Both the position numbers and the translations under genes were made by a program. From NCBI GenBank assembly GCA_947510165.1, contig CANNSB010000007.1, positions 17,637 to 81,636 of the forward strand: DNA of 64,000 nucleotides, written 5' to 3'. The stretch is from an uncultured Clostridia bacterium. Lineage in GTDB: Bacteria > Bacillota > Clostridia > Oscillospirales > Ruminococcaceae. Shown here piece by piece: positions 32,713 through 60,215 of the stretch (within the stretch, counting starts at the first letter, position 1; each line of letters starts with the position of its first letter). A model generated the notes under the pieces. It was not told where the DNA came from, did no database searches, and saw only the letters and a program-made list of their open reading frames with translations.

Positions 32713-33906
32713 CTATTGCCTAAGCATCTCATATTTTTCAAGATATCTCATCATTTTATCAGCCACTGCATCTATTACATTTATACATACTGAATTTCCA
32801 AATTGTTTGTATGCTTGTGTATTTGATACTGGAATTATGAAATCTTCTGGAAATCCCTGAAGTCTAGCACACTCCCTAGGAGTCAACATTCTTGGATTCT
32901 TGTTATCTTGTGCAATTAAGGCCTCACTTCCATCTTTATAATATCTTGCACTAATAGTACTAGTATACTTACTTTCGCTATCAAATAGGCAAAATCCAAA
33001 TCCATTTCCCTTTTTCTTATGGTTTTTCTTTCGTCCTAAATGTCCCGTCCATAATTTATCTGAGATTGTATATTTATCTTGAACATCTTGTTGAAGAATT
33101 GTACCGACCCTTATGGAATCATCAATCTCTCCAATTGGATATTCAAATTCAGAGTAGTCATCCGGTAAATAATCTTTATTGAATCCTACAATAATAATAC
33201 GCTCCCTATTTTGTGGTGATCCAAAGTGATAAGCGTTAAGAATTTGAGGCTCTGGAACATAATAATTTAGTTCTTTTAGTATTGACATAATAACTTTAAA
33301 AGTATTCCCACCATCATGTGTTCTAAGGTTTTTAACATTTTCAAGCATAAAAGCTTTTGGTCTTTTTTCCTTGATGATAGAAGCAATATTAAAAAATAAT
33401 GTGCCACGAACATCTTCAAATCCTTTTTTTAGTCCTGCATTTGAGAATGGTTGACAAGGAAAACCAGCTAACAAAATATCATGGGCAGCAATATCAGTTG
33501 GATTGATTCTAGTAATATCTCCTTCTGGCATTTCACCATAGTTAATCCTATAAGTCTTTTGAGCAAATTTATCCCACTCAGACGAAAATACTGTTCTACC
33601 ACCGTGACGTTGAAATCCTTGTCGAATACCACCTATCCCTGCAAATAAATCAATCTGTGTAAATCTTGCTTCTTCTTCACAAGGACCTTCCAATGGAGGC
33701 TCGGTTGGAAATTTAACAATTCTTTTGAAAATTTCTTCTGGAACATCTTCTTTTTCAGTTTCCCAAAATTTAAGTTTCTTCTCTTGTTCTTTATCAAAAG
33801 CTAAGGCATCAGAAAATTCTTTTCTTGTAATATCCAATTTTTTTCGAATATTAGTTATTTCAATACTTTTTGTCAATTCCAAGCTAATACTATTATCTAC
33901 CATCAT
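32713..33906 (-). CDS. DNA cytosine-5 methyltransferase with N-terminal HTH
   Basis: 397 aa. Residues 15-65 look like a short XRE-type helical segment (IRKKLDITRKEFSDALAF). Motif I QIDLFAGIGGIRQGF (about 84), motif IV AGFPCQPFSNAG with catalytic Cys151, FMLENVKNL, SPQNRERI, and RMLTPRECARLQGFP / YKQFGNSV at the end. Dcm/ScrFI-B branch. Divergent in orientation from the other methylase and nuclease, and preceded by a controller gene whose end it overlaps by 14 nt. With the enzyme at 29246 it gives the two-methylase arrangement of CCNGG-type systems (inference). Confidence 0.9.
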   Translation of the reverse strand: MMVDNSISLELTKSIEITNIRKKLDITRKEFSDALAFDKEQEKKLKFWETEKEDVPEEIFKRIVKFPTEPPLEGPCEEEARFTQIDLFAGIGGIRQGFQRHGGRTVFSSEWDKFAQKTYRINYGEMPEGDITRINPTDIAAHDILLAGFPCQPFSNAGLKKGFEDVRGTLFFNIASIIKEKRPKAFMLENVKNLRTHDGGNTFKVIMSILKELNYYVPEPQILNAYHFGSPQNRERIIIVGFNKDYLPDDYSEFEYPIGEIDDSIRVGTILQQDVQDKYTISDKLWTGHLGRKKNHKKKGNGFGFCLFDSESKYTSTISARYYKDGSEALIAQDNKNPRMLTPRECARLQGFPEDFIIPVSNTQAYKQFGNSVCINVIDAVADKMMRYLEKYEMLRQ

Positions 33907-35114: not shown

Positions 35115-36098
35115 TTAATTATATTCAGAAAGTATTTCTCTCAAATCATCATCCAATTTACGAAATGTAATATTTATATTATCCGCAATATGTATTTTTG
35201 AGTTAATTACATCACAACAATTAGTATCAAATAAAACAACATTAATACCATCTTTACGCAAAGAACTTTTAAATTTAATACCATCTAATTTTAAATGTTC
35301 TTTCACGTACTCAGTAATATATTGAGTAGGTATATATTTCAACTCATCATTATAATTCGGATTTTGAAACTGTTCCGCTATAGCTTGAATAACTGTTGGT
35401 GATGAAAATTCTATTCCATCTTCTAGTTTAAAAGATTCTACGTACTCATCTTTTGTCAAATCTAAAAGCATAAGATCTTTCTTGGTTTTTAATTCAGCTA
35501 TACTTATACTCTGTCCAATCACAGGCTTTACTTCATACATGGCAGTATCCTTATCTTGAGCGGTATAGAGATAACTAATATTCTTAGGGTTTAAACGCCC
35601 TTCTGACGTTTTATTAGAAGGTGGCGCTAAACAATCCTCAGATTTATACCCTTGAAAATCCCTATCTATAATTTTTTTACTGTATATATTAATATTTGAT
35701 ACAAATTTTGGTTTTCCTTTTCCATATAATAATAAAATGCGTATAATATTATATATTTCAGAAGGATTTGAATGTAATTTTTGTATATATTCTTTTCCCA
35801 ACTTTACACCCGTAATATTCTCCAAAAATTCTTGAATTTGATTTTTCATATGATAATTATCCACTATTCTTGCACGATATAATAATCCTCTTTGTGGTAA
35901 TACTTCAATAGCCGAGTTCATCTACTTATTAATTTTATCTAGAAATAAAACTGATTTTTCAGAGGGTATAAATCTGTTTTTATTTAATACACCATCCTCA
36001 AATTCAGCATACTGAGTATAGCTGTTCATTAATATTTGAAATAATATAATAATCCACTTATCTGTATCTTGAATGTCATCTGAATTAATTTCATTCAT
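35115..36098 (-). pseudogene. RES-domain toxin with in-frame amber
   Basis: RES fold (NAD+-degrading toxins): RGLLYRARI, LNPKNISYLYTAQDKDTAMY, VIGQSISIAELKT, YIPTQYITEYVKEHLKLDGI and NVVLFD. AAGGAG supports ATG 36098 (MNEINSDDIQDTDKWIIILF), giving a ~58-codon N-terminal region, TAG at 35922-35924, and then in the same frame ATG 35921 and the whole RES domain to 35115. Either the amber truncates a ~325-aa toxin, or the RES part is made separately by re-initiation at the adjacent ATG. No Xre/ParS-type antitoxin partner is visible next to it. Confidence 0.65.
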
Positions 36099-36367: not shown

Positions 36368-36778
36368 TTAACACCTATATATGCTATCATTTGTTATTTT
36401 CGTCCTTATCAAATATGTATAATGCTGGGTCAACAGAGCTATCTTTGATATTATTTCTTCTCCATCATTAACAAGCTTTTTAGCACGAGTAATCTCCAAA
36501 GGGTCTGAACTTGTTATCCCTTCTGCTATCATCTTATGATTAGAAACTTGCTTCCCTATATCCTTTAAAATTTCCTCTTCATTATTAGAAGGCGTATATG
36601 TTATTGATGTTATAGTTGATGGAATATTACACACTTCTGAAAGCCAACCATAGTTGATACTGTTAGGATATTTTATAACTCCTAGTCCTTTTAACGCAAC
36701 ATCACCTAGTTGTATTTTTGTCTTTTCAAATTCTATTCAACTTGGAGATATCATATTTAGTAAAGCATTATTTATCAT
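36368..36778 (-). pseudogene. VirB4/TraE-like ATPase, N-terminal fragment
   Basis: ATG 36778 behind AAGGAGGAAG: MINNALLNMISPS, TGA (family has Gly or Ala here), IEFEKTKIQLGDVALKGLGV, YGWLSEVCNIPSTITSITYT and further helical residues, ending at 36368. This is the N-terminus of the conjugative VirB4-type ATPases of Tn1549-like elements. The Walker domains, over 400 residues, are absent. As VirB4 is essential for type IV secretion, the element should be unable to transfer itself. Confidence 0.7.
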
Positions 36779-36842: not shown

Positions 36843-36950
36843 TTATTTTTTATTTTTAAAATATTTAATTATCATTGTAATCGAAATAGTTATAACAGAT
36901 ACTATCCCAACTAATATAAGAATACTTCCTATCGATGCTGAACCTGTCAT
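36843..36950 (-). CDS. 35-aa hydrophobic peptide
   Basis: ATG 36950 follows AAGGAG at good distance. The peptide starts MTGSASIGSILILVGIVSVI, has one long hydrophobic span and ends KYFKNKK. Similar in build to holin-like or type I toxin peptides but unrelated in sequence to the MEY peptides next door. It lies between the VirB4 fragment and type I module 1. Confidence 0.55.
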   Translation of the reverse strand: MTGSASIGSILILVGIVSVITISITMIIKYFKNKK

Positions 36951-37025
36951 ATAATGCTCCTTTTTAATTAATATTATTAAACATATATCTTGACAAATAC
37001 ATACGGGTATGTATATACTATAAAT

Positions 37026-37122
37026 ATAAAGGAACTACCGATGAACGGTTAGCCCTTAAACTATACTTTAAAAAATGTTACTAATTTAAAATAATCGTCT
37101 TGGCAGAGACGGTTATTTTTTT
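37026..37122 (+). ncRNA. Antisense-type RNA of module 1
   Basis: Promoter TTGACA (36990-36995), 18-nt spacer, TATACT (37014-37019). Transcript expected from about 37026 (GGAACTACCGATGAACGG), ending at the hairpin with T run at 37093-37122, which overlaps the 3' end of the toxin message in antisense. Class A. Confidence 0.6.
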
Positions 37123-37175
37123 ATGGCAATAATTAATAGAAGTAGCAAAGCTAAAACTATTACTATGTAATCCAT
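37113..37175 (-). CDS. Type I toxin-like peptide, module 1 (class A)
   Basis: 20 aa, MDYIVIVLALLLLLIIAIKK, preceded by AGGAGGTGAT. One membrane span with a Lys-Lys end. Transcribed from an extended -10 promoter (TGATATAAT, 37238-37243 on the minus strand, weak -35) and converging on a plus-strand small RNA; the stop codon lies in the shared bidirectional terminator. This is the Fst/Ibs-like arrangement of type I toxin-antitoxin loci, although the peptide does not match a family I know. Located between the VirB4 relic and the conjugation operon; the only copy outside the 55.8-60.1 kb clusters. Confidence 0.65.
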   Translation of the reverse strand: MDYIVIVLALLLLLIIAIKK

Positions 37176-37261
37176 AATATCACCTCCTTTTAAAAGGAGT
37201 GACTAACCGTCCACCGTTTGGTAGTTCCTTGATTGTGATTATATCATAAATACTATTAAAT

Positions 37262-37299: not shown

Positions 37300-37905
37300 C
37301 TATATAACAGGGATAGTTGTATACAAATCACCAACTTCAGTATCATATGTTATTGGATTTAAAAATAGATTACATAGTGTTCGTATATCATATTCACCAC
37401 ATATATGAGAGATATATCCACATCTTTGCAAGCTATTTTTAAAATCATACGCCATCGATGTAAGTTCTTTTTCCATAGATTTCTTCTGCCAAAGACAAAC
37501 ATAGGATTGTCTTTCTAACACTCCGCCACCCATTGATATATGTGATAGATACCTTATCGTTTTAGTTAGATTATCTCTCTTTATCGTATTAACTGTATTT
37601 CCTTTTATCTCCTCATAATGGGATATCAACATCTTTATATCTGCTTTTCTTGAGATAAATAAAAATTTAAAAGGTATTCTTAAGCAAGATATTTCGGAAG
37701 TTAACTTGTTTGTTATCTGCTTTTTTTCTGATTCTGTCATAAGGTCTATTGAGATAGGTTGCACTTTAATATATGAAAAAATATAACCATCTTTAGTAGA
37801 TAACACCTCCCCTTTTATATCTTCTATATTAATTAAATCTGATACATTCTTCTTTTCAACCTGTTTTATTTTCTTCTTAAATATGTTATTTAATGGTTTT
37901 ATCAT
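37300..37905 (-). CDS. TrsD-like conjugation protein
   Basis: About 201 aa. TTGGAG upstream selects ATG 37905 (MIKPLNNIFKKKIKQVEKKN) over the in-frame ATG at 37923. SDLINIEDIKGEVLSTKDGY and SYIKVQPISIDLMTESEKKQ resemble TrsD/VirB4 N-terminal-like proteins that follow PrgI in Gram-positive type IV secretion operons. No Walker motifs, so a structural or adaptor part of the channel, cytoplasmic. Overlaps the PrgI gene by about 20 nt. In intact elements the VirB4 ATPase comes next; here it is only a relic. Confidence 0.65.
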   Translation of the reverse strand: MIKPLNNIFKKKIKQVEKKNVSDLINIEDIKGEVLSTKDGYIFSYIKVQPISIDLMTESEKKQITNKLTSEISCLRIPFKFLFISRKADIKMLISHYEEIKGNTVNTIKRDNLTKTIRYLSHISMGGGVLERQSYVCLWQKKSMEKELTSMAYDFKNSLQRCGYISHICGEYDIRTLCNLFLNPITYDTEVGDLYTTIPVI

Positions 37906-38224
37906 TAATAAAACTCCAATCATTTAATCTTTTATAAAGATACCTTTTCTGGCTTTTTTCAAACTTTATAATCTGAACTATAAAGTCATAGAGTGATATA
38001 TTTAGGGCTGTCTTTTGCACACACAAATATATACAACCAACAACTACTATACTTCCACCTAACACCAATATATAATCTGCGTTAAATATAAATATCAAAA
38101 TAACTGCTATAGGAATTAAGATTAAAACCCCTACAAAAAGCCTTTTAGCCTCTTTAAATCCAATCCCTTTAGCAATAGTTTCTTTAAGACCTATTGTTTT
38201 ACTTGGCATAAAAAGTTCATTCAT
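37886..38224 (-). CDS. PrgI-family conjugation protein (VirB3-like)
   Basis: 112 aa. LFMPSKTIGLKETIAKGIGF start and two adjacent membrane spans (about 28-46 and 50-68) are the PrgI pattern; C-terminal KRYLYKRLNDW. Inner-membrane scaffold that works next to VirB4 in Gram-positive type IV secretion. Operon member between the VirB2-like and TrsD-like genes, overlapping the latter. Confidence 0.8.
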   Translation of the reverse strand: MNELFMPSKTIGLKETIAKGIGFKEAKRLFVGVLILIPIAVILIFIFNADYILVLGGSIVVVGCIYLCVQKTALNISLYDFIVQIIKFEKSQKRYLYKRLNDWSFINDKTIK

Positions 38225-47926: not shown

Positions 47927-48589
47927 TTACCTTTCTCTACCAAAATCTTTTTTTGTTTTATATTCATAATGATAATTTTCAGTTAATTTATTTAAAGTTT
48001 TTTCTAGAATCAAATTTCTATCTTGTAGAGATTTAATCTGTTCTTGTTTAGAAGATATATCCTGTTTTAATTTTTGATTTTCATAGTTTGACTGTTTAAG
48101 ATGTTCTCCAATATTTTTTAGATTATTAAGATTATCTATAATAGTTTTTTGGTCTATAGATAGATGTTGATATTTTAGATTATTGACTTCTTTATCCGTT
48201 TGTAGTGTTGCACCTATATTAAAAATAGATTGTTTAGTTTCACTAAAATCTCTCACCAAAATATCTTTTATATCTTTATGTTCTAAAGAGAGCCCACTTT
48301 TTCTAGCTTCTGTGCCATTTTGAATTGCATTTATTAAAGAGTTATGATTAGAACTTTCATAAGATAATCTTTGATTTAGAAGATTATTAATTTTATCTTC
48401 AGTTTTTTCAGGTATTTTTTTAAGATATTTATAGTACATAAAAATAGTTAGAAGAAATGATGTGATTAATCCAACAGCAATGCTAATTAAAAGTTCATAC
48501 CACATTATATACCCCCGCTTTAATATTGTTAATAACAGTATTATTATAGCAGAATTTGTAATAAGCAAAACTGATATTTTTTTATCCAT
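47927..48589 (-). CDS. Membrane-anchored coiled-coil protein
   Basis: 220 aa. Hydrophobic N-terminus (VLLITNSAIIILLLTILKRG) and a second span (LLISIAVGLITSFLLTIFMY), then a long charged coiled coil (IDNLNNLKNIGEHLKQSNYE; SSKQEQIKSLQDRNLILEKT). ATG 48589 has RBS AGAAAGG and overlaps the adhesin stop by 8 nt. An alternative ATG at 48505 behind GGGGGT would give a single-span form (MWYELLIS), similar to RmuC-like N-termini. Probably a cytoplasm- or wall-facing tether in the same surface operon. Confidence 0.6.
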   Translation of the reverse strand: MDKKISVLLITNSAIIILLLTILKRGYIMWYELLISIAVGLITSFLLTIFMYYKYLKKIPEKTEDKINNLLNQRLSYESSNHNSLINAIQNGTEARKSGLSLEHKDIKDILVRDFSETKQSIFNIGATLQTDKEVNNLKYQHLSIDQKTIIDNLNNLKNIGEHLKQSNYENQKLKQDISSKQEQIKSLQDRNLILEKTLNKLTENYHYEYKTKKDFGRER

Positions 48590-50519
48590 TATTGTTTACC
48601 TTTCTTTTTTTCATAAATAATAATGTTACTAAACCTCCAAGACCAGTGATGATAAATAATAATATCCCTGAAACATCTCCAGTAGAAGGATTTTTTATTG
48701 TTCCAATAGAGATATTCGGCTTGCCATCAGGCTTTATATATTCAATATCAATCTTACCTTTTTCAGGCTGATTTACCATAGAAATATTTACTACAAGTCC
48801 ATCAGAAAATATATCTACAGGATACTTTTTATCCGATAAAATAAACCCCTCTGGAGATGCAATTTCCATAATATAATAATTTCCGTATGGAATATCTGTA
48901 AAACTAAATAGCCCATCTTCACCAGTTATCATGCTTTCTACAAGTTCAAATTTAGTCATATCTTTATCGGTGTAAGCGTATAACCCAATCTCTGCTCCTG
49001 CCAAAGGCTTTCCACTTATTGCATCGGTTTTTATCCCTTTAACCGAGCCTTTCATGATAGTATTTATGATATCTTCAATCTCAATTGTTACACCGTTTTC
49101 TCTAACTGTAACAGGATAAGTTTTATCTGAAAGAATATATCCATCAGGGGATTTTATTTCTTTCACAATATAATCTCCATAAGGAATATCCTGAAATTCA
49201 AAGTAGCCAATCTCATTAGTAATTCTAGTTAAAACTGGGTTTGTAAACTCTGTATCATCATCCCTAAAAAGTCCAATCTCAGCACCACATAAATTCATAC
49301 CATTATCACCTTTTTTATACCCTGATATATTACCTTTTTTTATAGTGTTATGGAATTTAGAAGTAACAGTATCTCCCGTAGTAACGGTGATTATTTGAGG
49401 ATTAGGTTGTATAAATTCATCTGTTAAATTAATCTCTGAAACAGTATAACTTCCAACAGGAAGAGCTCCAAAACTAGCTTTACCAGATGTATCGGTAACA
49501 ACAGTTTTATCTATCCCATTCCCAGATAAAGCAAAAGAAAATCCATCCACCTTACCAGTGTCAGAAGTTTTTTCAACGTCAATATTTCCAATAGTTAAAC
49601 TTGCAGATGCTAGATCAATATGTTCCTGTTGAGTTGGAGTAGTTGAAAGAGTAGTAACTTTTTGGTATTTATTGTTACTAGGTAATAATTCATCCGATAC
49701 TTTCTTTTGATATTGAACTCTAGCGCCGAGTTGAATATTAATACCTTTATTAGCATCTTCTGATTTTATTCTTAGTTTAAATTTAGAATTTGGGGCAATG
49801 TCTGAGTTTGTCACAACAAGACCATCTTGATTTACAATCTCCATTTCAGCTGGTAAACCATTTGCTATAACCCTATAGTTTGTATATTCTCCAGATGTAT
49901 TTATTGAATAAAGTTCTGTTTCAAAATATCCAGTATCTGGTTTGTATTTTAAAGTTTGAGTAGATGGAGAGATTGAAACGGTTAAAGCTTTTGTGTCTAC
50001 TTCTTTTATTTTAATCCTTGCATCTGCTACAAGCTTTCTTGCGTTTGCAAGTATGTTTGGATTTCCTGTAGATGATACCATAAATCTATCATTTAAACCT
50101 TGATAGATGTGTATAGCAGTTTGGGTTATGTAAAAATCATAATCATCATTATCAACTAAATAATTAGGATTTCTATCTGCCTGACCATATGCATGAAGTC
50201 CATTCTCAAGAATATATGTCATACCTCTATCCATCTCACCACCGTTAGTATATGTTATCCCTCCTGTAGGAGGATTTGGTTTTGCTTGTTCAAGACAATA
50301 TGCGGGTAGGTTATCACTAGAGATGTTTTTAGGAAATATAAGAGAACTACCATCAGTATATTTTATATAGTTTAGAGTAGAGCCAAACTGTCTAATAGTC
50401 ACAATATTCTTTTCAGTAGTACTATTAGGTAGCTCTGTTGCAAAACCAGTTATACTAGTTGTAAAAGCAATTGTAGTTGCAATTACACCAGATAGGATTT
50501 TTTTAATTAGTTTATTCAT
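48582..50519 (-). CDS. Thioester/CnaB-domain adhesin, sortase substrate
   Basis: 645 aa. Signal peptide to about residue 28 (FTTSITGFATEL). Thioester domain with LPAYCLEQAKPNPP (Cys75) and FYITQTAIHIYQG (Gln133), which can form an internal Cys-Gln thioester for covalent host binding. Three CnaB/SpaA repeats follow (NIDVEKTSDTGKVDGFSF; GNISGYKKGDNGMNLCGAEI; GSVKGIKTDAISGKPLAGAE). C-terminal sorting signal NPSTG (610-614), hydrophobic span and KKRK tail; NPxTG is a non-class-A sortase motif. No sortase gene in the window, so a chromosomal one must act. First gene of the surface operon; a decayed relative lies at 4201-4480. Confidence 0.85.
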   Translation of the reverse strand: MNKLIKKILSGVIATTIAFTTSITGFATELPNSTTEKNIVTIRQFGSTLNYIKYTDGSSLIFPKNISSDNLPAYCLEQAKPNPPTGGITYTNGGEMDRGMTYILENGLHAYGQADRNPNYLVDNDDYDFYITQTAIHIYQGLNDRFMVSSTGNPNILANARKLVADARIKIKEVDTKALTVSISPSTQTLKYKPDTGYFETELYSINTSGEYTNYRVIANGLPAEMEIVNQDGLVVTNSDIAPNSKFKLRIKSEDANKGINIQLGARVQYQKKVSDELLPSNNKYQKVTTLSTTPTQQEHIDLASASLTIGNIDVEKTSDTGKVDGFSFALSGNGIDKTVVTDTSGKASFGALPVGSYTVSEINLTDEFIQPNPQIITVTTGDTVTSKFHNTIKKGNISGYKKGDNGMNLCGAEIGLFRDDDTEFTNPVLTRITNEIGYFEFQDIPYGDYIVKEIKSPDGYILSDKTYPVTVRENGVTIEIEDIINTIMKGSVKGIKTDAISGKPLAGAEIGLYAYTDKDMTKFELVESMITGEDGLFSFTDIPYGNYYIMEIASPEGFILSDKKYPVDIFSDGLVVNISMVNQPEKGKIDIEYIKPDGKPNISIGTIKNPSTGDVSGILLFIITGLGGLVTLLFMKKRKVNNNG

Positions 50520-50548
50520 TCATATTCTCCTTTAAATTTATATATACA

Positions 50549-50583
50549 AAAAGAGAGAAAAAGTATTATTCCTTTACTCTCTT
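50549..50583. terminator. Terminator after the CAP-domain gene
   Basis: AAGAGAG/CTCTCTT stem followed by a T run in the leftward direction, between the CAP-domain gene and the adhesin gene. Confidence 0.65.
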
Positions 50584-50596
50584 AAAATATTATTTC

Positions 50597-51409
50597 TTAT
50601 TCAAATAAATCATTCCAAAAATCAGTAACAACATAGAAACGACCATTACTATCTTTATATACTGCAACAGCTCCACCTGTATATAATATTTGTAGCATAC
50701 TTTGTTTATGCCCTTTATCTGAATCACTCCACTGTTTAATAAAAGATTCTGCTGTTCCAGTACTGTTATTAAGTGCTATTTGACCTTCTTCATGATATAT
50801 AACTTGTTCTTTTGCATTTCCTTCAGCAATCTTCTTAGCTCTCCTATTACAAGTTTCATTCCATTTAAGGGGAGCGACACCGTTATCTTGGCGAAACTTA
50901 TTCATTAAATCAAAAGTCTGTCTTGATAATGCGGGCATATATTCCCATGTTCTCTGAGCTACTGGAGGAGGCGTTGGTGGTGGCGGAGTTGGTGGTGGCG
51001 GGGTTGGTGTAGGAGTTGGAGGGTTTGGTTTTGTTGAGATATTTCCACCATTTGATGTTGGTGGAGTTGGCTGTTTTGATGGTGTTGAACTAGTACTATT
51101 TCCCCCAGTTGAAGTTAAGTTAGATGAGGAAGTAGTTTCTGTAGCAGAAGAATTATCAGAATTATTAGTATCAATATCACCTTCATTTAAAGAACTACTA
51201 CTTTCATCTGAAGAGCTATCTGATAATGAACTAGAAGAATCATAGGAACTATTAGATAGATTATTATTATTAACCTGATTATCCTTGTTAGAAGTTATAG
51301 CGATAATAGGAATTGAAATTATCACTGCTATGGTTACGCAGGCTAGGGAGATTGCTGTTTTTTTATGGGATTTTATCCAATCGGTGGACTTTTTAATAAT
51401 AGGATTCAT
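50597..51409 (-). CDS. Membrane-anchored CAP (SCP/PR1) domain protein
   Basis: 270 aa. Short cytoplasmic start and one N-terminal span (TAISLACVTIAVIISIPIIA), a Ser/Asn-rich then Pro/Thr-rich stalk (about 45-150, including PTPPPPTPPPPTPPP), and a CAP domain (MPALSRQTFDLMNKFRQDNG; RAKKIAEGNAKEQVIYHEEG; GHKQSMLQILYTGGAVAVYK). Type II membrane protein with an extracellular head; CAP domains in Gram-positive elements are thought to act in wall binding or remodelling. RBS AAGGAG. Own terminator, so a separate unit from the adhesin operon. Confidence 0.75.
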   Translation of the reverse strand: MNPIIKKSTDWIKSHKKTAISLACVTIAVIISIPIIAITSNKDNQVNNNNLSNSSYDSSSSLSDSSSDESSSSLNEGDIDTNNSDNSSATETTSSSNLTSTGGNSTSSTPSKQPTPPTSNGGNISTKPNPPTPTPTPPPPTPPPPTPPPVAQRTWEYMPALSRQTFDLMNKFRQDNGVAPLKWNETCNRRAKKIAEGNAKEQVIYHEEGQIALNNSTGTAESFIKQWSDSDKGHKQSMLQILYTGGAVAVYKDSNGRFYVVTDFWNDLFE

Positions 51410-55814: not shown

Positions 55815-55849
55815 TTGACATTTAACAAAATCCTGTATATACTGGAATA

Positions 55850-55948
55850 TATAAAGGGAACTACCGATGAACGGTTAGCCCTAAAAAATATTTTTAAGTA
55901 ATTGAATTAATTAAAAATAATCGTCTGGCTAGAGACGGTTATTTTTTT
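55850..55948 (+). ncRNA. Antisense-type RNA of module 2
   Basis: TTGACA (55815-55820), 17-nt spacer, TATACT (55838-55843). RNA from about 55850 (GGGAACTACCGATGAACGG) to the T run at 55948. Class A. Confidence 0.65.
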
Positions 55949-56001
55949 ATGGATTGTAATAATAGAAGTATTAAAACTAAAATTATTATTATGTATTCCA
56001 T
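55939..56001 (-). CDS. Type I toxin-like peptide, module 2 (class A)
   Basis: 20 aa, MEYIIIILVLILLLLQSIKK, behind AGGAGGTGATAATTT. Promoter on the minus strand: TTGACA (56092-56097), 18-nt spacer, TATAAT (56068-56073), a consensus match. Message leader starts near GGGAATTACCACAACGG. It converges on the small RNA and shares the terminator AATAATCGTCT...AGACGGTTATT. Confidence 0.7.
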   Translation of the reverse strand: MEYIIIILVLILLLLQSIKK

Positions 56002-56147
56002 AAATTATCACCTCCTATCTCTAGGAAGTAGCTAACCGTCCACCGTTGTGGTAATTCCCTTACTAGTATTATATATCTTTTTGGTGAATTTTGTCAATTG
56101 ATTTACTAGTTATTGACATTTAATAAAATCCCTTATATAATATAACA

Positions 56148-56242
56148 TATAAAGGGAACTACCGATGAACGGTTGGTCTCCCCAAAAACTTAGATTAAAA
56201 GATTAATCGTACACTTTTGTGAGAGGACGATTAATCTTTTTT
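56148..56242 (+). ncRNA. Antisense-type RNA of module 3
   Basis: Perfect promoter TTGACA (56113-56118), 17 nt, TATAAT (56136-56141). RNA from about 56148 to the T run after GATTAATC (56242). Class B. Confidence 0.65.
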
Positions 56243-56302
56243 GTTATGTAAAAATCTATCTAATAATATTAATATTACAATTAAAAAAATCAGATATTCC
56301 AT
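56231..56302 (-). CDS. Type I toxin-like peptide, module 3 (class B)
   Basis: 23 aa: MEYLIFLIVILILL then DRFLHNKKD; one membrane span and a charged tail. RBS AGGAGGTGGTTGT. Minus-strand promoter TTGACA (56395-56400), 18 nt, TATAAT (56371-56376). Stop codon lies in the shared terminator stem (GATTAATCG). Same peptide as modules 5 and 7. Confidence 0.7.
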   Translation of the reverse strand: MEYLIFLIVILILLDRFLHNKKD

Positions 56303-56450
56303 ACAACCACCTCCTTTTAACAGGAAGTGAAGACCAACCGTCCACCGTTGTGGTAATTCCCTTGTTAGCTATTATATATCTTTTTGGTGAATTTTGTCAA
56401 TTGATTTACTAGTTATTGACATTTAATAAAATCCCTTATATAATATAACA

Positions 56451-56544
56451 TATAAAGGGAACTACCGATGAACGGTTGGTCTCCCCAAAAATTTGATTAA
56501 AAGATTAATCGTTTACTTTCGAAGAGCGACGATTAGTCTTTTTT
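56451..56544 (+). ncRNA. Antisense-type RNA of module 4
   Basis: TTGACA (56416-56421), 17 nt, TATAAT (56439-56444); RNA from about 56451 to 56544. Class B left end. Confidence 0.6.
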
Positions 56545-56604
56545 GTTATGTAAAAGTCTATCTAATAATATTAATATGACAATTAAAAAAATCAGATATT
56601 CCAT
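56533..56604 (-). CDS. Type I toxin-like peptide, module 4 (hybrid, promoter lost)
   Basis: 23 aa, MEYLIFLIVILILL then DRLLHNKKD, one substitution from the other class B peptides. The RBS is kept, but beyond 56640 the leader and promoter found in the other copies are gone, and the remaining leader reads GGTTAGCC on the minus strand, the class A form. The small RNA side still has a perfect promoter. This looks like a recombinant in which the toxin is silent but the RNA is made. Confidence 0.65.
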   Translation of the reverse strand: MEYLIFLIVILILLDRLLHNKKD

Positions 56605-56654
56605 ACAACCACCTCCTTTTAACAGGAAGTGGCTAACCGCATACTGTTATTACA

Positions 56655-56690
56655 ACACCTTGATATATAGTATATCAAGGTGTGTTTTTT
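56655..56690 (+). terminator. Strong terminator
   Basis: Perfect 13-bp stem (ACACCTTGATATA, loop TAG) followed by seven T, replacing the right end of module 4. Confidence 0.8.
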
Positions 56691-56838
56691 TGTAAAATAA
56701 TGTTAGTAATATAGTTAATATATACTTTGTTTATCAATACGCTATATATTTTTTACAAACTCTTTAATCCTGATAAGTCATAGGACAAGAGTCAAAAGAA
56801 TATGTATCTAGACCATAATTCACTACATATATTTTATA

Positions 56839-59190
56839 TTATAATCCAGTTATAATAACTCCTATATTTTCGTTATCTTCATAGTAAAAATTAATTAATA
56901 CATTTATTTTTTTAAGTCTTACTTTTATTAAATTGGATAAGTCATCATAGTTTAGGAGTAGGTCTACACAATGATATGTATATATGTAATTATCTTCAAA
57001 TTTTTCACATTGTTCTATTTCGGATTTCATTTTTTCAGAAGATAAATCTTCATATTTTATATCTAAACTTTCTAGGTCAAAATAACAGTTAAGTTTATCT
57101 GCTTTATATATAAAAATATCATTATAATATTCTTTATAATATTCTTTTGAAAATAAAAGCCCCTTATATTTAAATTTGTCGTTAAATATCTTATCTTTTT
57201 CATTCAAATTACTTAGAGGATGATTAATCATATATGTATCATAATTTGATGAATCAACTTTTTCAGTATCTTGTTTTTCATAATGAGCTATATTTTTTTC
57301 GTTAATAAAATTTTTTAGTATATTAAAACACAACATATCTGATATGTAACTAGCGCTAACTTGCATAATTGTATTATCATAAAAATTATACAGTAAATTT
57401 ATTTTTTTATAATTTATATTATCTAATTTATTTAGGTTATAAAAACTACTTTTTTTTATAGAGTCTTCTAATCGATTTAAATATTCTTTTTTATTTGTAT
57501 TCATATCTTCAGTTGAAACTTCTTCTTTTTTGATTATTCTATCATAAAATTCGTCTTTAAATAAATTATAAATACTACTTATATTATTGTCACTCATTAT
57601 ATCATTGTCACTTATATTAAAATTGCTCTCGTCTAGAATAGAATATATGTCCTCTATTCTTTTTACATTATCTTCTTTCAAACCGATCTTTTCTTTTGTT
57701 ATGTCAAATAGGTTTAAAATATTTTTTATGGTGTTGTCTTCTAAATTTTTTATACCATGATCTAATATTGACTCATATGAATGAATAAGTAATAATGACA
57801 TATATCCATTAAATATAGATGGAAAATCATATAATGTAGATGAACTGGAATAATTAGAATAGTATATTCCGTTAAGCATATATTTAAATACAGTATTACT
57901 ATTTAAATTATTTGAAAAATTATATATTTTAGATATAGTATTTATATCAGTTTTTTTATTATTCATACTCATACTCATATCGATATTTATAATTTTATAA
58001 TATTTTTTAATTATATATTCAACCTTTTCTTTGAAGATATCTACTGTATCGTTATATAGTAATACGTATATTAACACAAATAGTAAATATAATATAAAAA
58101 CTTTATTGTATTGGAATTTAAAAAAATATTTTGTAAATTTATTTATATCATACTTTTCATGATTATAAAAAATATATATGTAGGCTATTTCTAACATCAT
58201 TTCCACTGAAAAATATTCTATGTTTCTGATGTTTTCCATATTTGTACTTGAAGATAGATTAGAAAAATAATCAATCAAATAATATATATCAAAATTGTTT
58301 GTATCAAAAGTACCTATAATGCTTTCTGTTAATATAAATCTGTTCTCTTCTCTTGATATTGTAATGCTGTCATCATCATTTTTTATGTATAATTTTTCTA
58401 TATTTATATCAAAAAACTCAAACAAACTTTTATAGTAATTATTTTGAACATCTCTTTTTTCAACTATTTTATCTAGTTTACAAAAATATAATATCAAAAT
58501 ATCATTTGTTAAGTATAATGAAGATAATCTTTGATTACCAGTATAAGAAATATCTTTTAAATGAAACATTAGTATATCAATGTTTTGTGAAAATTCTTTT
58601 GCATTTAGTTTGGAAACATCTAATTGGTTTTTCATTTTTGATAACCAATTTGCATATTCTTCCCTTTCTATATTTAAGTTTTCTATGTATTTTTTAGACT
58701 GTTCATAACAATACTCATCACTTGAAATGTATTTAAACAGATCTATTATCAAGGCAAAAAATATCCATATGTTTATTATTAATATAACTATAAAAGCATT
58801 CATAGAGTTTAAATTAACATTTATTATATTTATAAAAACTAAAGAAATACAAATTATTATATTTTCAAGGAAATTAAATGGTGTTACCTTTGTTTTAGTT
58901 AAAGAAATAATATCTAAGATAGAAAGACCATAGTATGTTTTATCTAGTCTTGATAGTAGTAATGAAAACATTGTGATTCCAAGCACAGATACAGTAGCTT
59001 GAACTCCTAAAAGAGAAGGCAAATTAGAATAATCAGTATTAAAAAGGTATCCATTGAATAATGTATTAGCAATATATTCTCCTTCAGCTGCAATTATAAA
59101 ACTTATTACAAAAAGTATACCTATAAATATAAGTATACTAATAATATTTATATGAGGTTTTGGTTTGATTTTCTTGTTTTTATCTGACAT
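56839..59190 (-). CDS. 783-aa multi-span membrane protein, unknown
   Basis: N-terminal part with about four membrane spans (IISILIFIGILFVISFIIAA; SLLGVQATVSVLGITMFSLL; NIIICISLVFINIINVNLNS; FIVILIINIWIFFALIIDLF), a large Asn/Asp/Tyr/Ile-rich cytoplasmic region, a further span at about 370-390 (FILYLLFVLIYVLLY), and a ~390-residue C-terminal domain. RBS AAGGAG. No family recognised. It sits alone, bracketed by three type I modules on each side, so it behaves like cargo of that cluster. An abortive-infection or other defence role is speculation. Confidence 0.7.
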   Translation of the reverse strand: MSDKNKKIKPKPHINIISILIFIGILFVISFIIAAEGEYIANTLFNGYLFNTDYSNLPSLLGVQATVSVLGITMFSLLLSRLDKTYYGLSILDIISLTKTKVTPFNFLENIIICISLVFINIINVNLNSMNAFIVILIINIWIFFALIIDLFKYISSDEYCYEQSKKYIENLNIEREEYANWLSKMKNQLDVSKLNAKEFSQNIDILMFHLKDISYTGNQRLSSLYLTNDILILYFCKLDKIVEKRDVQNNYYKSLFEFFDINIEKLYIKNDDDSITISREENRFILTESIIGTFDTNNFDIYYLIDYFSNLSSSTNMENIRNIEYFSVEMMLEIAYIYIFYNHEKYDINKFTKYFFKFQYNKVFILYLLFVLIYVLLYNDTVDIFKEKVEYIIKKYYKIINIDMSMSMNNKKTDINTISKIYNFSNNLNSNTVFKYMLNGIYYSNYSSSSTLYDFPSIFNGYMSLLLIHSYESILDHGIKNLEDNTIKNILNLFDITKEKIGLKEDNVKRIEDIYSILDESNFNISDNDIMSDNNISSIYNLFKDEFYDRIIKKEEVSTEDMNTNKKEYLNRLEDSIKKSSFYNLNKLDNINYKKINLLYNFYDNTIMQVSASYISDMLCFNILKNFINEKNIAHYEKQDTEKVDSSNYDTYMINHPLSNLNEKDKIFNDKFKYKGLLFSKEYYKEYYNDIFIYKADKLNCYFDLESLDIKYEDLSSEKMKSEIEQCEKFEDNYIYTYHCVDLLLNYDDLSNLIKVRLKKINVLINFYYEDNENIGVIITGL

Positions 59191-59267
59191 AAAATCTCCT
59201 TGTTTATGAATGATTTATTTAGTTTTATTAAGTTGACATTTAACAAAATCCTGTATATACTAAAATA

Positions 59268-59365
59268 TATAAAGGGAACTACCGATGAACGGTTGGTCTC
59301 CCCCAAAAAATACAAAATCAAAAGATTAATCGTACACTTTGGTGAGAGGACGATTAATCTTTTTT
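59268..59365 (+). ncRNA. Antisense-type RNA of module 5
   Basis: TTGACA (59233-59238), 17 nt, TATACT (59256-59261); RNA from about 59268 to 59365. Class B. Confidence 0.65.
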
Positions 59366-59425
59366 GTTATGTAAAAATCTATCTAATAATATTAATATTA
59401 CAATTAAAAAAATCAGATATTCCAT
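59354..59425 (-). CDS. Type I toxin-like peptide, module 5 (class B)
   Basis: 23 aa, same peptide as module 3. RBS AGGAGGTGG; minus-strand promoter TTGACA (59517-59522), 18 nt, TATAAT (59493-59498). Leader GGTTGGTCTCC is the exact inverted counterpart of the start of the facing RNA. Confidence 0.7.
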   Translation of the reverse strand: MEYLIFLIVILILLDRFLHNKKD

Positions 59426-59572
59426 ACAACCACCTCCTTTTAACAGGAAGTGGAGACCAACCGTCCACCGTTGTGGTAATTCCCTTACTAGTATTATATA
59501 TCTTTTTGGCGAATATTGTCAATTGATTTACTAGTTGTTGACATTTAACAAAATCCTGTATATACTGGAATA

Positions 59573-59666
59573 TATAAAAGGAACTACCGATGAACGGTTA
59601 GCCCTTAACGAATTTTTTAGTAATTAAATAAAAAATAATCGTCTTGGCTGAGACGGTTATTTTTTT
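59573..59666 (+). ncRNA. Antisense-type RNA of module 6
   Basis: TTGACA (59538-59543), 17 nt, TATACT (59561-59566); RNA from about 59573 to 59666. Class A. Confidence 0.65.
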
Positions 59667-59737
59667 ACGGACATAATTAGAAGAAGAATAAGCACTAAAA
59701 TTAATGCAAATCCAAATATAATAAGTATGTATTCCAT
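59657..59737 (-). CDS. Type I toxin-like peptide, module 6 (class A variant)
   Basis: 26 aa: MEYILIIFGFALILVLILLL then IMSVKK, six residues longer than the module 2 peptide but with the same ends. RBS AGGAGGTGATAATTT; minus-strand promoter TTGACA (59828-59833), 18 nt, TATAAT (59804-59809). Confidence 0.7.
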   Translation of the reverse strand: MEYILIIFGFALILVLILLLIMSVKK

Positions 59738-59883
59738 AAATTATCACCTCCTATCTCTAGGAAGTAGCTAACCGTCCACCGTTGTGGTAATTCCCTTACT
59801 AGTATTATATATCTTTTTGGTGAATTTTGTCAATTGATTTACTAGTTATTGACATTTAATAAAATCCCTTATATAATATAACA

Positions 59884-59978
59884 TATAAAGGGAACTACCG
59901 ATGAACGGTTGGTCTCCCCAAAAACTTAGATTAAAAGATTAATCGTACACTTTTGTGAGAGGACGATTAATCTTTTTT
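59884..59978 (+). ncRNA. Antisense-type RNA of module 7
   Basis: TTGACA (59849-59854), 17 nt, TATAAT (59872-59877); RNA from about 59884 to 59978. Class B, almost identical to module 3. Confidence 0.65.
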
Positions 59979-60038
59979 GTTATGTAAAAATCTATCTAAT
60001 AATATTAATATTACAATTAAAAAAATCAGATATTCCAT
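59967..60038 (-). CDS. Type I toxin-like peptide, module 7 (class B)
   Basis: 23 aa, same peptide as modules 3 and 5. RBS AGGAGGTGG; minus-strand promoter TTGACA (60131-60136), 18 nt, TATAAT (60107-60112). Confidence 0.7.
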   Translation of the reverse strand: MEYLIFLIVILILLDRFLHNKKD

Positions 60039-60215
60039 ACAACCACCTCCTTTTAACAGGAAGTGAAGACCAACCGTCCACCGTTGTGGTAATTCCCTTA
60101 TTTACTATTATATATCTTTTTGGCGAATATTGTCAATTGATTCACTAGAAATTAATATTTAATAGAACACTATATATACTAAAATATAAAAGAGAAAAAA
60201 TTTCTATGAAAATAA

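Follow-up and report, generated by a model that had tools for sequence, protein, structure and literature searches.

Type I toxin-antitoxin (TA) systems in which the messenger RNA (mRNA) of a hydrophobic toxin and its antitoxin RNA overlap at their 3' ends, with decay as the outcome, include txpA/RatA and bsrG/SR4, as set out in the passages of PMC4147584 and PMC6562991 devoted to these pairs. The account of Fst/par (RNA I/RNA II of pAD1) in PMC7472228 describes a plasmid-borne system with convergent promoters, a bidirectional terminator, a Shine-Dalgarno sequence (SD) held in a stem-loop and RNA pairing that begins at a loop. The portion of PMC6733600 on aapA3 reports that the full-length mRNA of 225 nucleotides (nt), which shows 5'-3' pairing, is inert and that loss of the last 35 nt activates it; the same portion states that hok also requires 3' processing. 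Specificity among related copies has been traced to V1 in the Orz RNAs (as stated in PMC3919570), variation in the zor/Orz pairing region "may prevent crosstalk" (in the wording of PMC11264685), and recognition domains are described for the Sib RNAs in the relevant parts of PMC8309996 and PMC4147584. Type I systems of Clostridioides difficile (CD2517.1-RCd8 and others) are presented in the corresponding sections of PMC6563280 as convergent, overlapping genes with small hydrophobic toxins and mostly cognate-specific antitoxins. Here, seven modules that resemble these systems are described in a window of 64,000 nt (the whole stretch of DNA that was analyzed) from an uncultured Clostridia bacterium of the family Ruminococcaceae (GCA_947510165.1, contig CANNSB010000007.1, positions 17,637 to 81,636).

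The preferred interpretation, to which we assign a probability of about 0.7, is that each module is a type I TA unit in which an SD-sealed, fold-back toxin mRNA would be silenced by a short plus-strand antitoxin RNA that draws its specificity from a variable segment and a hairpin loop. Six modules of ~290 bp form two triplets (55815-56640 and 59233-60136) with class order A-B-B and B-A-B on either side of a gene for a 783-amino-acid (aa) protein, and a seventh lies at ~36990-37240, confirming the arrangement reported in the initial annotation. The plus promoters (TTGACA-17-TATAAT/TATACT) and minus promoters (TTGACA-18-TATAAT) of each module converge on one hairpin, and module promoters account for 11 of the 12 top-ranking promoter-like sites between 55700 and 60300. 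The minus strand encodes hydrophobic toxin-like peptides of 20-26 aa that begin with MEY or MDY (MEYIIIILVLILLLLQSIKK, MEYLIFLIVILILLDRFLHNKKD in three copies, MEYLIFLIVILILLDRLLHNKKD, MEYILIIFGFALILVLILLLIMSVKK and MDYIVIVLALLLLLIIAIKK), each preceded by a GGAGG-type SD. Modules 2 and 6 are near-identical, with the same promoter, head, variable segment and loop and only 4 substitutions in the next 150 nt; because they share a segment, these two modules should cross-neutralize. The window modules match the shared RNA model described below at 77-87 bits, a model that includes window sequences or identical copies except for module 3 (77.3 bits), and these matches together with the repeats exclude chance as an origin of the modules.

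The single design with two consensus promoters that had been proposed for all modules holds generally, with two departures. Module 3 (from 56416) has lost its GGAATTACC right end and TTGACA minus promoter, although a weaker TTTACA-16-TATACT site occurs at 56696-56669. In module 7, the minus side lacks a TTGACA promoter. Where module 3 has lost its end, a 13-bp inverted repeat (56655-56683) overlaps the TTTACA-16-TATACT site, and a related end is also found on a degenerate module of another genome of the genus (G002, contig C48). With Fst/par the modules share convergent promoters, a shared bidirectional terminator, an SD in a stem-loop and a plasmid setting. In contrast to Fst/par, the module ends are inverted rather than direct (DRa/DRb) repeats, pairing of head with leader does not exceed that of shuffled sequences, and inspection of the window peptides shows no PXXXG-type motif of the sort given in PMC7472228. 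The Clostridioides difficile systems, compared by layout alone, likewise have convergent overlapping genes and small hydrophobic toxins, with toxins of 34-59 aa in the part of the literature cited above and of 20-26 aa in the window.

In the proposed mechanism, the minus strand would give rise to an mRNA for a membrane peptide that presumably acts as a toxin, and a leader hairpin would close the SD of this mRNA. If transcription reads past the central hairpin, the 5' end of the full-length mRNA would pair with its own 3' end to yield an inert molecule, and by analogy with hok and AapA, 3' trimming would be needed before the toxin could be translated. The plus strand would produce a short RNA complementary to the 3' third of the full-length mRNA; the two RNAs would first pair at the variable segment and hairpin loop, and extension of the duplex over the shared parts would lead to RNase III-type decay. 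The segment and loop would thus act as a barcode that allows near-identical modules to coexist on plasmid, chromosome and phage without silencing one another, and each element could thereby keep its own addiction. The broader proposal is held tentatively, at slightly less than even odds: a phylum-wide RNA family with a constant scaffold and an exchangeable barcode that would be swapped as a cassette even between toxin classes, leaving modules mutually blind, with the barcode carried in a hok-like fold-back tail of the mRNA. In the open-licence literature that was searched, no single scaffold was found that combines these features with a segment changed wholesale.

The reach of the family has been probed using RNA models. 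An element confined to the genus, as suggested by a fixed sequence pattern found in 3 of 298 family genomes (all of the genus), was overturned by this approach; in the named genome collection, which may leave out records near the window's genome, the same pattern identified 5 stretches, all from the two other metagenome-assembled genomes of the genus. A first model of the plus RNA (R1) has matches in 16 of 246 order genomes, with clear relatives in other families of the order. R1 matches at L089, L090, L092, L094-L097, L131, L132 and L136 were dropped as terminator-only, and L099, a module with a 24-aa peptide, is in no count. A second plus-RNA model (R2), built from 16 sequences and blind to the open reading frame (ORF), has matches at E<=0.01 (E-values being per genome and rough) in 161 of the 395 genomes of the order and in 125 of the 392 of the class; by hand count, the best E is <=1e-5 in 54 of the 392 class genomes. 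At the level of the phylum, 15 of 200 genomes have R2 matches at E<=0.001, and 11 of these 15 are not from the class.

The peptide check covers the strongest R2 matches only. From 78 matches, 12 weaker ones were dropped (11 of these being opposite-strand mirror matches of a module), leaving 66 matches of at least 39.7 bits from 52 loci outside the genus, none of which is in the model. An SD-led hydrophobic ORF lies on the opposite strand in 49 of these 66, with its stop 9-15 nt inside the RNA 3' end; among 20,000 positions drawn at random from these loci, 61 show such an ORF with a fixed stop. In the phylum search, 14 of 25 matches were tested and 7 of the 14 have the ORF opposite, all at 38.9 bits or more; one of the loci, L198, is from a class genome. 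Thirteen viral contigs have a pattern match, and the ORF is present in 9 of the 13. The genus pattern had no matches in viral contigs, and the stretches matched by an 18-base head pattern (1) and by a 16-base pattern (31) were judged by inspection to be chance. Neither blastn of the first triplet (826 nt) nor tblastn of the peptide of one relative produced a match in the plasmid and phage collections.

Some relatives have features of their own. A clustered array at L140 (G674 C1:2360674-2363758) contains five modules within ~1.6 kb of a 2.76-Mb contig, and a match to the cspA thermoregulator lies beside the module at L093:2713-3052 (66.7 bits against an Rfam threshold of 78, E 1.9e-15). The two modules of genome G502 (L134:1653-1739 and 1982-2065) have toxin-like ORFs beginning MVTYEAL that lack a nearby SD. 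Just upstream begins an ORF in a different frame (MNFHYAP...), itself led by an SD, that overlaps the MVTYEAL ORF, and this overlap could reflect translational coupling as in mok/hok. At L016 (G001 C116), a one-base deletion near the hairpin swaps the KK-stop end of the peptide for a longer tail.

The relationship of the peptides to known families was examined with 43 sequences (36 of the 46 distinct strong-match peptides, of which two were shortened to an internal Met, 3 from other relatives and 4 from the window). At E<=0.1, Pfam Hol_Tox (PF16935) matches 13 of the 43 (best 1.1e-10), the named type I toxin PepG1 of NCBIfam matches 5 (best 0.00062) and the named competence inhibitor ComI of NCBIfam matches 5 (best 3.1e-7); a PHROGs holin family matches 3 of the 43 at E<=0.01. 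The window peptides of modules 1, 2, 5 and 7 have no match to PF16935 and the window peptides reach no curated cut-off in the peptide-family libraries, the best library match, of the module 5 peptide to PF14341 PilX_N (0.0011), being taken as chance. No Rfam family has a gathering match in the window, nor for the antitoxin RNA in 10 relatives. The six triplet toxin mRNAs match BsrG of Rfam at 15.4-20.2 bits against a gathering threshold of 55, and these matches carry little weight; the one alignment inspected rests largely on the SD hairpin. The absence of a described family, as initially claimed, is therefore upheld for the RNA within Rfam and does not extend to the peptides of relatives, some of which match Hol_Tox.

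Because relatives with the same RNA carry Hol_Tox peptides, the window modules are, as judged by sequence comparison, kin of Hol_Tox-type type I modules; they vary a known kind of system in a new way and do not constitute a kind of their own. TxpA and BsrG are themselves Hol_Tox-type toxins. The likeness to TxpA/RatA, BsrG/SR4, Hol_Tox and PepG1 extends to the overlap of toxin mRNA and antitoxin at their 3' ends, the Hol_Tox peptides of relatives and the weak BsrG matches. The window peptides differ from this group in being shorter, in starting with MEY or MDY and in missing PF16935, and the window RNA differs from TxpA/RatA and BsrG/SR4 in its lack of an Rfam gathering match, its short antitoxin with a variable segment and its fold-back ends. 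Retention of the hydrophobic ORF suggests selection on the peptide gene, and the hydrophobic core is retained beyond neutral drift in 2 of 3 pairs (P 0.0016 and 0.012; the third 0.41). Each module would comprise what is expected of a type I system, namely a small hydrophobic peptide gene apparently under selection and a predicted antisense RNA gene that overlaps the toxin mRNA and has its own promoter and terminator. The type I layout proposed in the initial annotation is well supported by sequence comparison, through the RNA-model matches with an ORF opposite, the Hol_Tox matches and the SD pairing described below.

The predicted plus RNA consists of a 5' stem-loop, a mostly unpaired stretch of ~12-36 nt and a strong terminator hairpin in 14 of the 16 RNAs folded; the other two (g2C10a and g2C22) pair inside the variable stretch. 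Otherwise very alike modules often differ in this 12-36-nt segment. Among 23 pairs compared, 4 have identical segments, 4 have segments with some likeness and 15 have segments whose likeness does not exceed that of shuffles. The 15 pairs from the genus, which are not all independent, include 4 with the same segment (W7/g2C10b, C1/C3, C1/C13 and W2/W6), 9 whose segments do not exceed shuffles in likeness (P 0.054-0.92) and 2 with related segments (W2/W3, P 0.006, and C15/g2C10a, 0 of 500 shuffles). In the tandem pair C10a/C10b of G002, promoter and head have 71 positions the same and 2 changed and the 150 nt behind the hairpin have 148 the same and 2 changed, with segment likeness at the shuffle level (20 vs 20.0+-1.5). 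Similarly, C1 and g2C11a have 0 changes in 73 and 0 in 150 positions and a segment score of 21 vs 19.5+-1.5 for shuffles. The C15/g2C10a pair joins a class C toxin with a class A toxin, and these related segments suggest that segments have been exchanged between toxin classes. Predicted pairing of a segment with its cognate complement has a mean of -27.7 kcal/mol, compared to a mean of -3.9 across non-identical pairs, among which C15/g2C10a pairs most strongly (-18.8 kcal/mol); class B segments are 12-16 nt and their cognate pairing is weaker (-7.9 to -15.4).

Outside the genus, 8 close pairs were available, each within one genome (6 from four loci, as the closest of 21 same-locus pairs, 1 from G475 and 1 from G502). 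Their ORF and leader stretches are 81-99% identical and their heads have 26-32 of 28-32 positions identical, and the segments are no more alike than shuffles in 6 (P 0.077-0.87) and show some likeness in 2 (P 0.011 and 0.015). Loops often differ too in these pairs (the L149 loops by one base), and in 5 of the 6 loci pairs at least one loop side is more alike than shuffles, or nearly so. The variable segment thus resembles a specificity barcode and probably decides which copy the RNA silences. The "class-specific" addiction initially suggested is modified accordingly, in that the data favor module-specific recognition and the same toxin can have a different antitoxin segment. The zor/Orz and Ibs/Sib systems are similar in being multi-copy paralogs whose pairing region matters for specificity. 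They differ from the window modules in gene arrangement and toxins; three bases decide in Orz, in contrast to the whole 12-36-nt segment here, and unlike Ibs/Sib, the antitoxin does not cover the whole ORF and ribosome binding site, as the RNA (55853-55950) and ORF (55939-56001) of module 1 share 12 nt.

The ends of the modules offer a second line of evidence. The 5' end of the plus RNA is more like its own mRNA leader than the average leader of another locus in 48 of 49 modules, and falls within the top 5% in 25 of the 49. Identity of the ends cannot serve pairing between plus RNA and mRNA, but as a result of it the 3' end of a read-through mRNA would be complementary to the 5' end of the same molecule. 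Folding was carried out on 62 modules (49 with a peptide and 13 of the genus, leaving out the 17 without a peptide, C3, C13, W6 and g1C116) with a full-length read-through mRNA assumed, the median length of which is 224.5 nt. The folded mRNAs have a mean of 21.2 end-to-end pairs, compared to 12.0 with exchanged 3' ends. Own-end duplexes reach -36.2 kcal/mol vs -24.2 kcal/mol with the ends of other modules, the own end being better in 61 of 62, and local hairpins of the folded mRNAs sum to -17.2 kcal/mol. Furthermore, differences between the ends are tolerated as G.U pairs 78 times on the mRNA strand vs 13 on the plus strand (47 groups, one module per locus or class). These results provide moderate evidence that the ends are maintained by pairing in the mRNA strand and, since they seem to be kept in this way, that a read-through mRNA would exist. 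The predicted long-distance 5'-3' pairing of a ~225-nt toxin mRNA, obtained in silico with the full length assumed, is the point of likeness to hok/Sok and aapA/IsoA, from which the modules differ in that the antitoxin sits over the 3' third of the mRNA. The SD is closed in a hairpin, by inspection, in 17 folded leaders of the genus despite differing sequences, and outside the genus 40 of 49 leaders have an SD that is paired to 75% or more, compared to an expectation of 23.8 from shuffling of the remaining leader sequence.

Several results weigh against the interpretation of the modules as type I units with a fold-back mRNA and a barcode. The ORF rule finds no peptide in 17 of the 66 strong matches and also misses both G502 modules, and pN is close to pS in diverged module pairs, so that dN/dS, and with it the synonymous-bias criterion set in the initial annotation, is uninformative here. 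At least 8 end-to-end pairs form in 60 of 62 modules (the exceptions being truncated module 3 and L187), but 66% of the exchanged-end controls also reach at least 8, so that this count alone proves little. The G.U asymmetry falls mostly in an 8-nt core that is partly shared by descent (58 to 5), and outside the core it is reduced to 20 to 8 (p=0.036), or 16 to 6 groups (p=0.052). Pairing of the plus-RNA head with the leader is not above shuffles in 13 modules (z -2.4 to 0.15). Some segments remain related, namely W2/W3 and the two outside pairs of low P, and the shuffle test is low-powered on short AT-rich segments such as the short ones of class B. Finally, because a T-rich tail follows the central hairpin on the mRNA strand in several modules, the mRNA may end there and never hold the barcode.

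This last point underlies an unlikely, though not negligible, alternative, in which the modules are type I TA units with an mRNA that ends at the central hairpin, recognition occurs solely by loop-loop kissing, as it is initiated in Fst/RNAII, and the variable segment is unconstrained or binds something in trans. In addition to the T-rich tail, the loop differs in most pairs with differing segments, as would be expected under this scheme. However, a segment free of constraint would be expected to change no more quickly than silent flanks, and in g2C10a/b, g2C11a/b, C1/g2C11a and C1/g2C11b the flanks have 0-4 changes in ~220 nt with segments as unlike as shuffles. Loops are also reused even though the segments differ (W1 = g2C22, W5 = g1C116 and C1 = g2C11b), and the matched ends can pair only in a read-through mRNA. 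It is improbable that the peptides are not toxins and are instead small-RNA-regulated membrane peptides, such as phage or plasmid membrane regulators, with the RNA an ordinary antisense repressor. The peptides are putative toxins, and the ComI matches fit such a regulatory role; the Hol_Tox and PepG1 matches, the multi-copy distribution, the mobile-element setting and the occurrence on viral contigs argue for toxins.

Two further explanations have very little probability. The inverted ends and several copies could reflect an inert repeat, or one like a miniature inverted-repeat transposable element (MITE), with terminal inverted repeats and moved by another element, in which the ORFs and promoters are by-products; such a repeat does not account for the paired promoters, for an ORF kept at a fixed position across families despite different sequence, or for end mismatches that are strand-biased, unlike those of symmetric DNA repeats. 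Equally remote is the idea, raised in the initial annotation, that the triplets protect or regulate the 783-aa membrane protein. Nothing but position ties this protein to the modules: it was found in 1 of 61 family genomes, namely its own, and in neither of the 2 other genus genomes, and the modules occur without it, being present in all three genus genomes. The claim of cargo protection is thus without support.

If the type I interpretation with an exchangeable barcode is true, the RNA model would reveal hidden toxin-antitoxin pairs across Clostridia and would propose an antitoxin partner for the Hol_Tox peptides of this group. Natural modules with the same toxin and different segments would make the question of coexistence approachable by swaps of ~30 nt, and the fold-back ends would link a convergent module of Gram-positive type to the hok/AapA way of delaying toxin synthesis.

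Table 1. Predicted features of the seven modules and the intervening gene (window positions).
Feature	Position	Strand	Remarks
Module 1 (class A) antitoxin-type RNA	55853..55950	+	promoter 55815-55843; variable segment 55883-55915; hairpin loop 55927-55932
Module 1 toxin-like ORF, 20 aa	55939..56001	-	minus promoter 56097-56068; SD predicted to be sealed in leader hairpin
Module 2 (class B) antitoxin-type RNA	56151..56242	+	promoter 56113; variable segment 56184-56196; loop 56211-56225
Module 2 toxin-like ORF, 23 aa	56231..56302	-	minus promoter 56400-56371
Module 3 (class B) antitoxin-type RNA	56454..56544	+	promoter 56416; variable segment 56487-56498; loop 56513-56527
Module 3 toxin-like ORF, 23 aa	56533..56604	-	right end lost; predicted fold-back broken (1.0 expected pairs)
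783-aa protein	56839..59190	-	between triplets; hydrophobic at residues 10-156 and 359-386; no match in Pfam
Module 4 (class B) antitoxin-type RNA	59271..59365	+	promoter 59233; variable segment 59304-59319; loop 59334-59348
Module 4 toxin-like ORF, 23 aa	59354..59425	-	minus promoter 59522-59493
Module 5 (class A) antitoxin-type RNA	59576..59668	+	promoter 59538; variable segment 59606-59633; loop 59645-59650
Module 5 toxin-like ORF, 26 aa	59657..59737	-	minus promoter 59833-59804
Module 6 (class B) antitoxin-type RNA	59887..59978	+	promoter 59849; variable segment and loop as in module 2
Module 6 toxin-like ORF, 23 aa	59967..60038	-	minus promoter 60136-60107
Module 7 (class A) antitoxin-type RNA	37027..37124	+	promoter 36990; variable segment 37057-37089; loop 37101-37106
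Module 7 toxin-like ORF, 20 aa (MDY)	37113..37175	-	adjoins 207-aa ORF of transfer region; single here, tandem pair in G002

The modules lie near genes for ParA, ParB, a phage-type integrase, a RepA_N protein and VirD4-type and TrbL-type transfer proteins, and on this gene content the window element is read as a conjugative plasmid or integrative element. A terminal repeat is absent from the contig, so circularity has no support from it. The window's genome (1.32 Mb in 19 contigs) contains 11 modules, with 7 in the window, 1 on C15 and 3 at C1, C3 and C13 that are identical in the compared parts. The other two genomes of the genus, which are metagenome assemblies, contain 5 intact modules and 1 degenerate module (G002) and 1 module (G001). 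The window element and an element of G002 are 98.6% identical over 5.6 kb, with 1 module in the former and 2 in the latter, and only one of the two tandem modules of G002 retains the segment of the window element.

The surroundings of module 7 contain additional features. In G002 (L076:4613-7915), the two modules sit between a 207-aa ORF and the gene for a 595-aa VirB4-like ATPase (PF19044), an arrangement that looks like a split virB4 gene; in the window (36395-36778 and 37300-37923), the 207-aa ORF is kept and the ATPase is present only as a fragment (1-127 of 595). The 207-aa ORF has no Pfam match; that it derives from VirB4 is a guess based on its size and location. Immediately downstream of module 7, an SD-led membrane peptide of 35 aa (36843-36950, minus strand) is also found in G002 and has no family match above the cut-off. 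The same region of the window encodes a RES-domain protein (35115-35921), which we presume may be part of another TA pair, and a C-5 cytosine methylase (32713-33906). Surface-type proteins with SpaA repeats, a weak thioester-domain match and a CAP domain are encoded at 48582-51409, and ORFs similar to them by eye lie near the module at C1 of the window's genome (G000).

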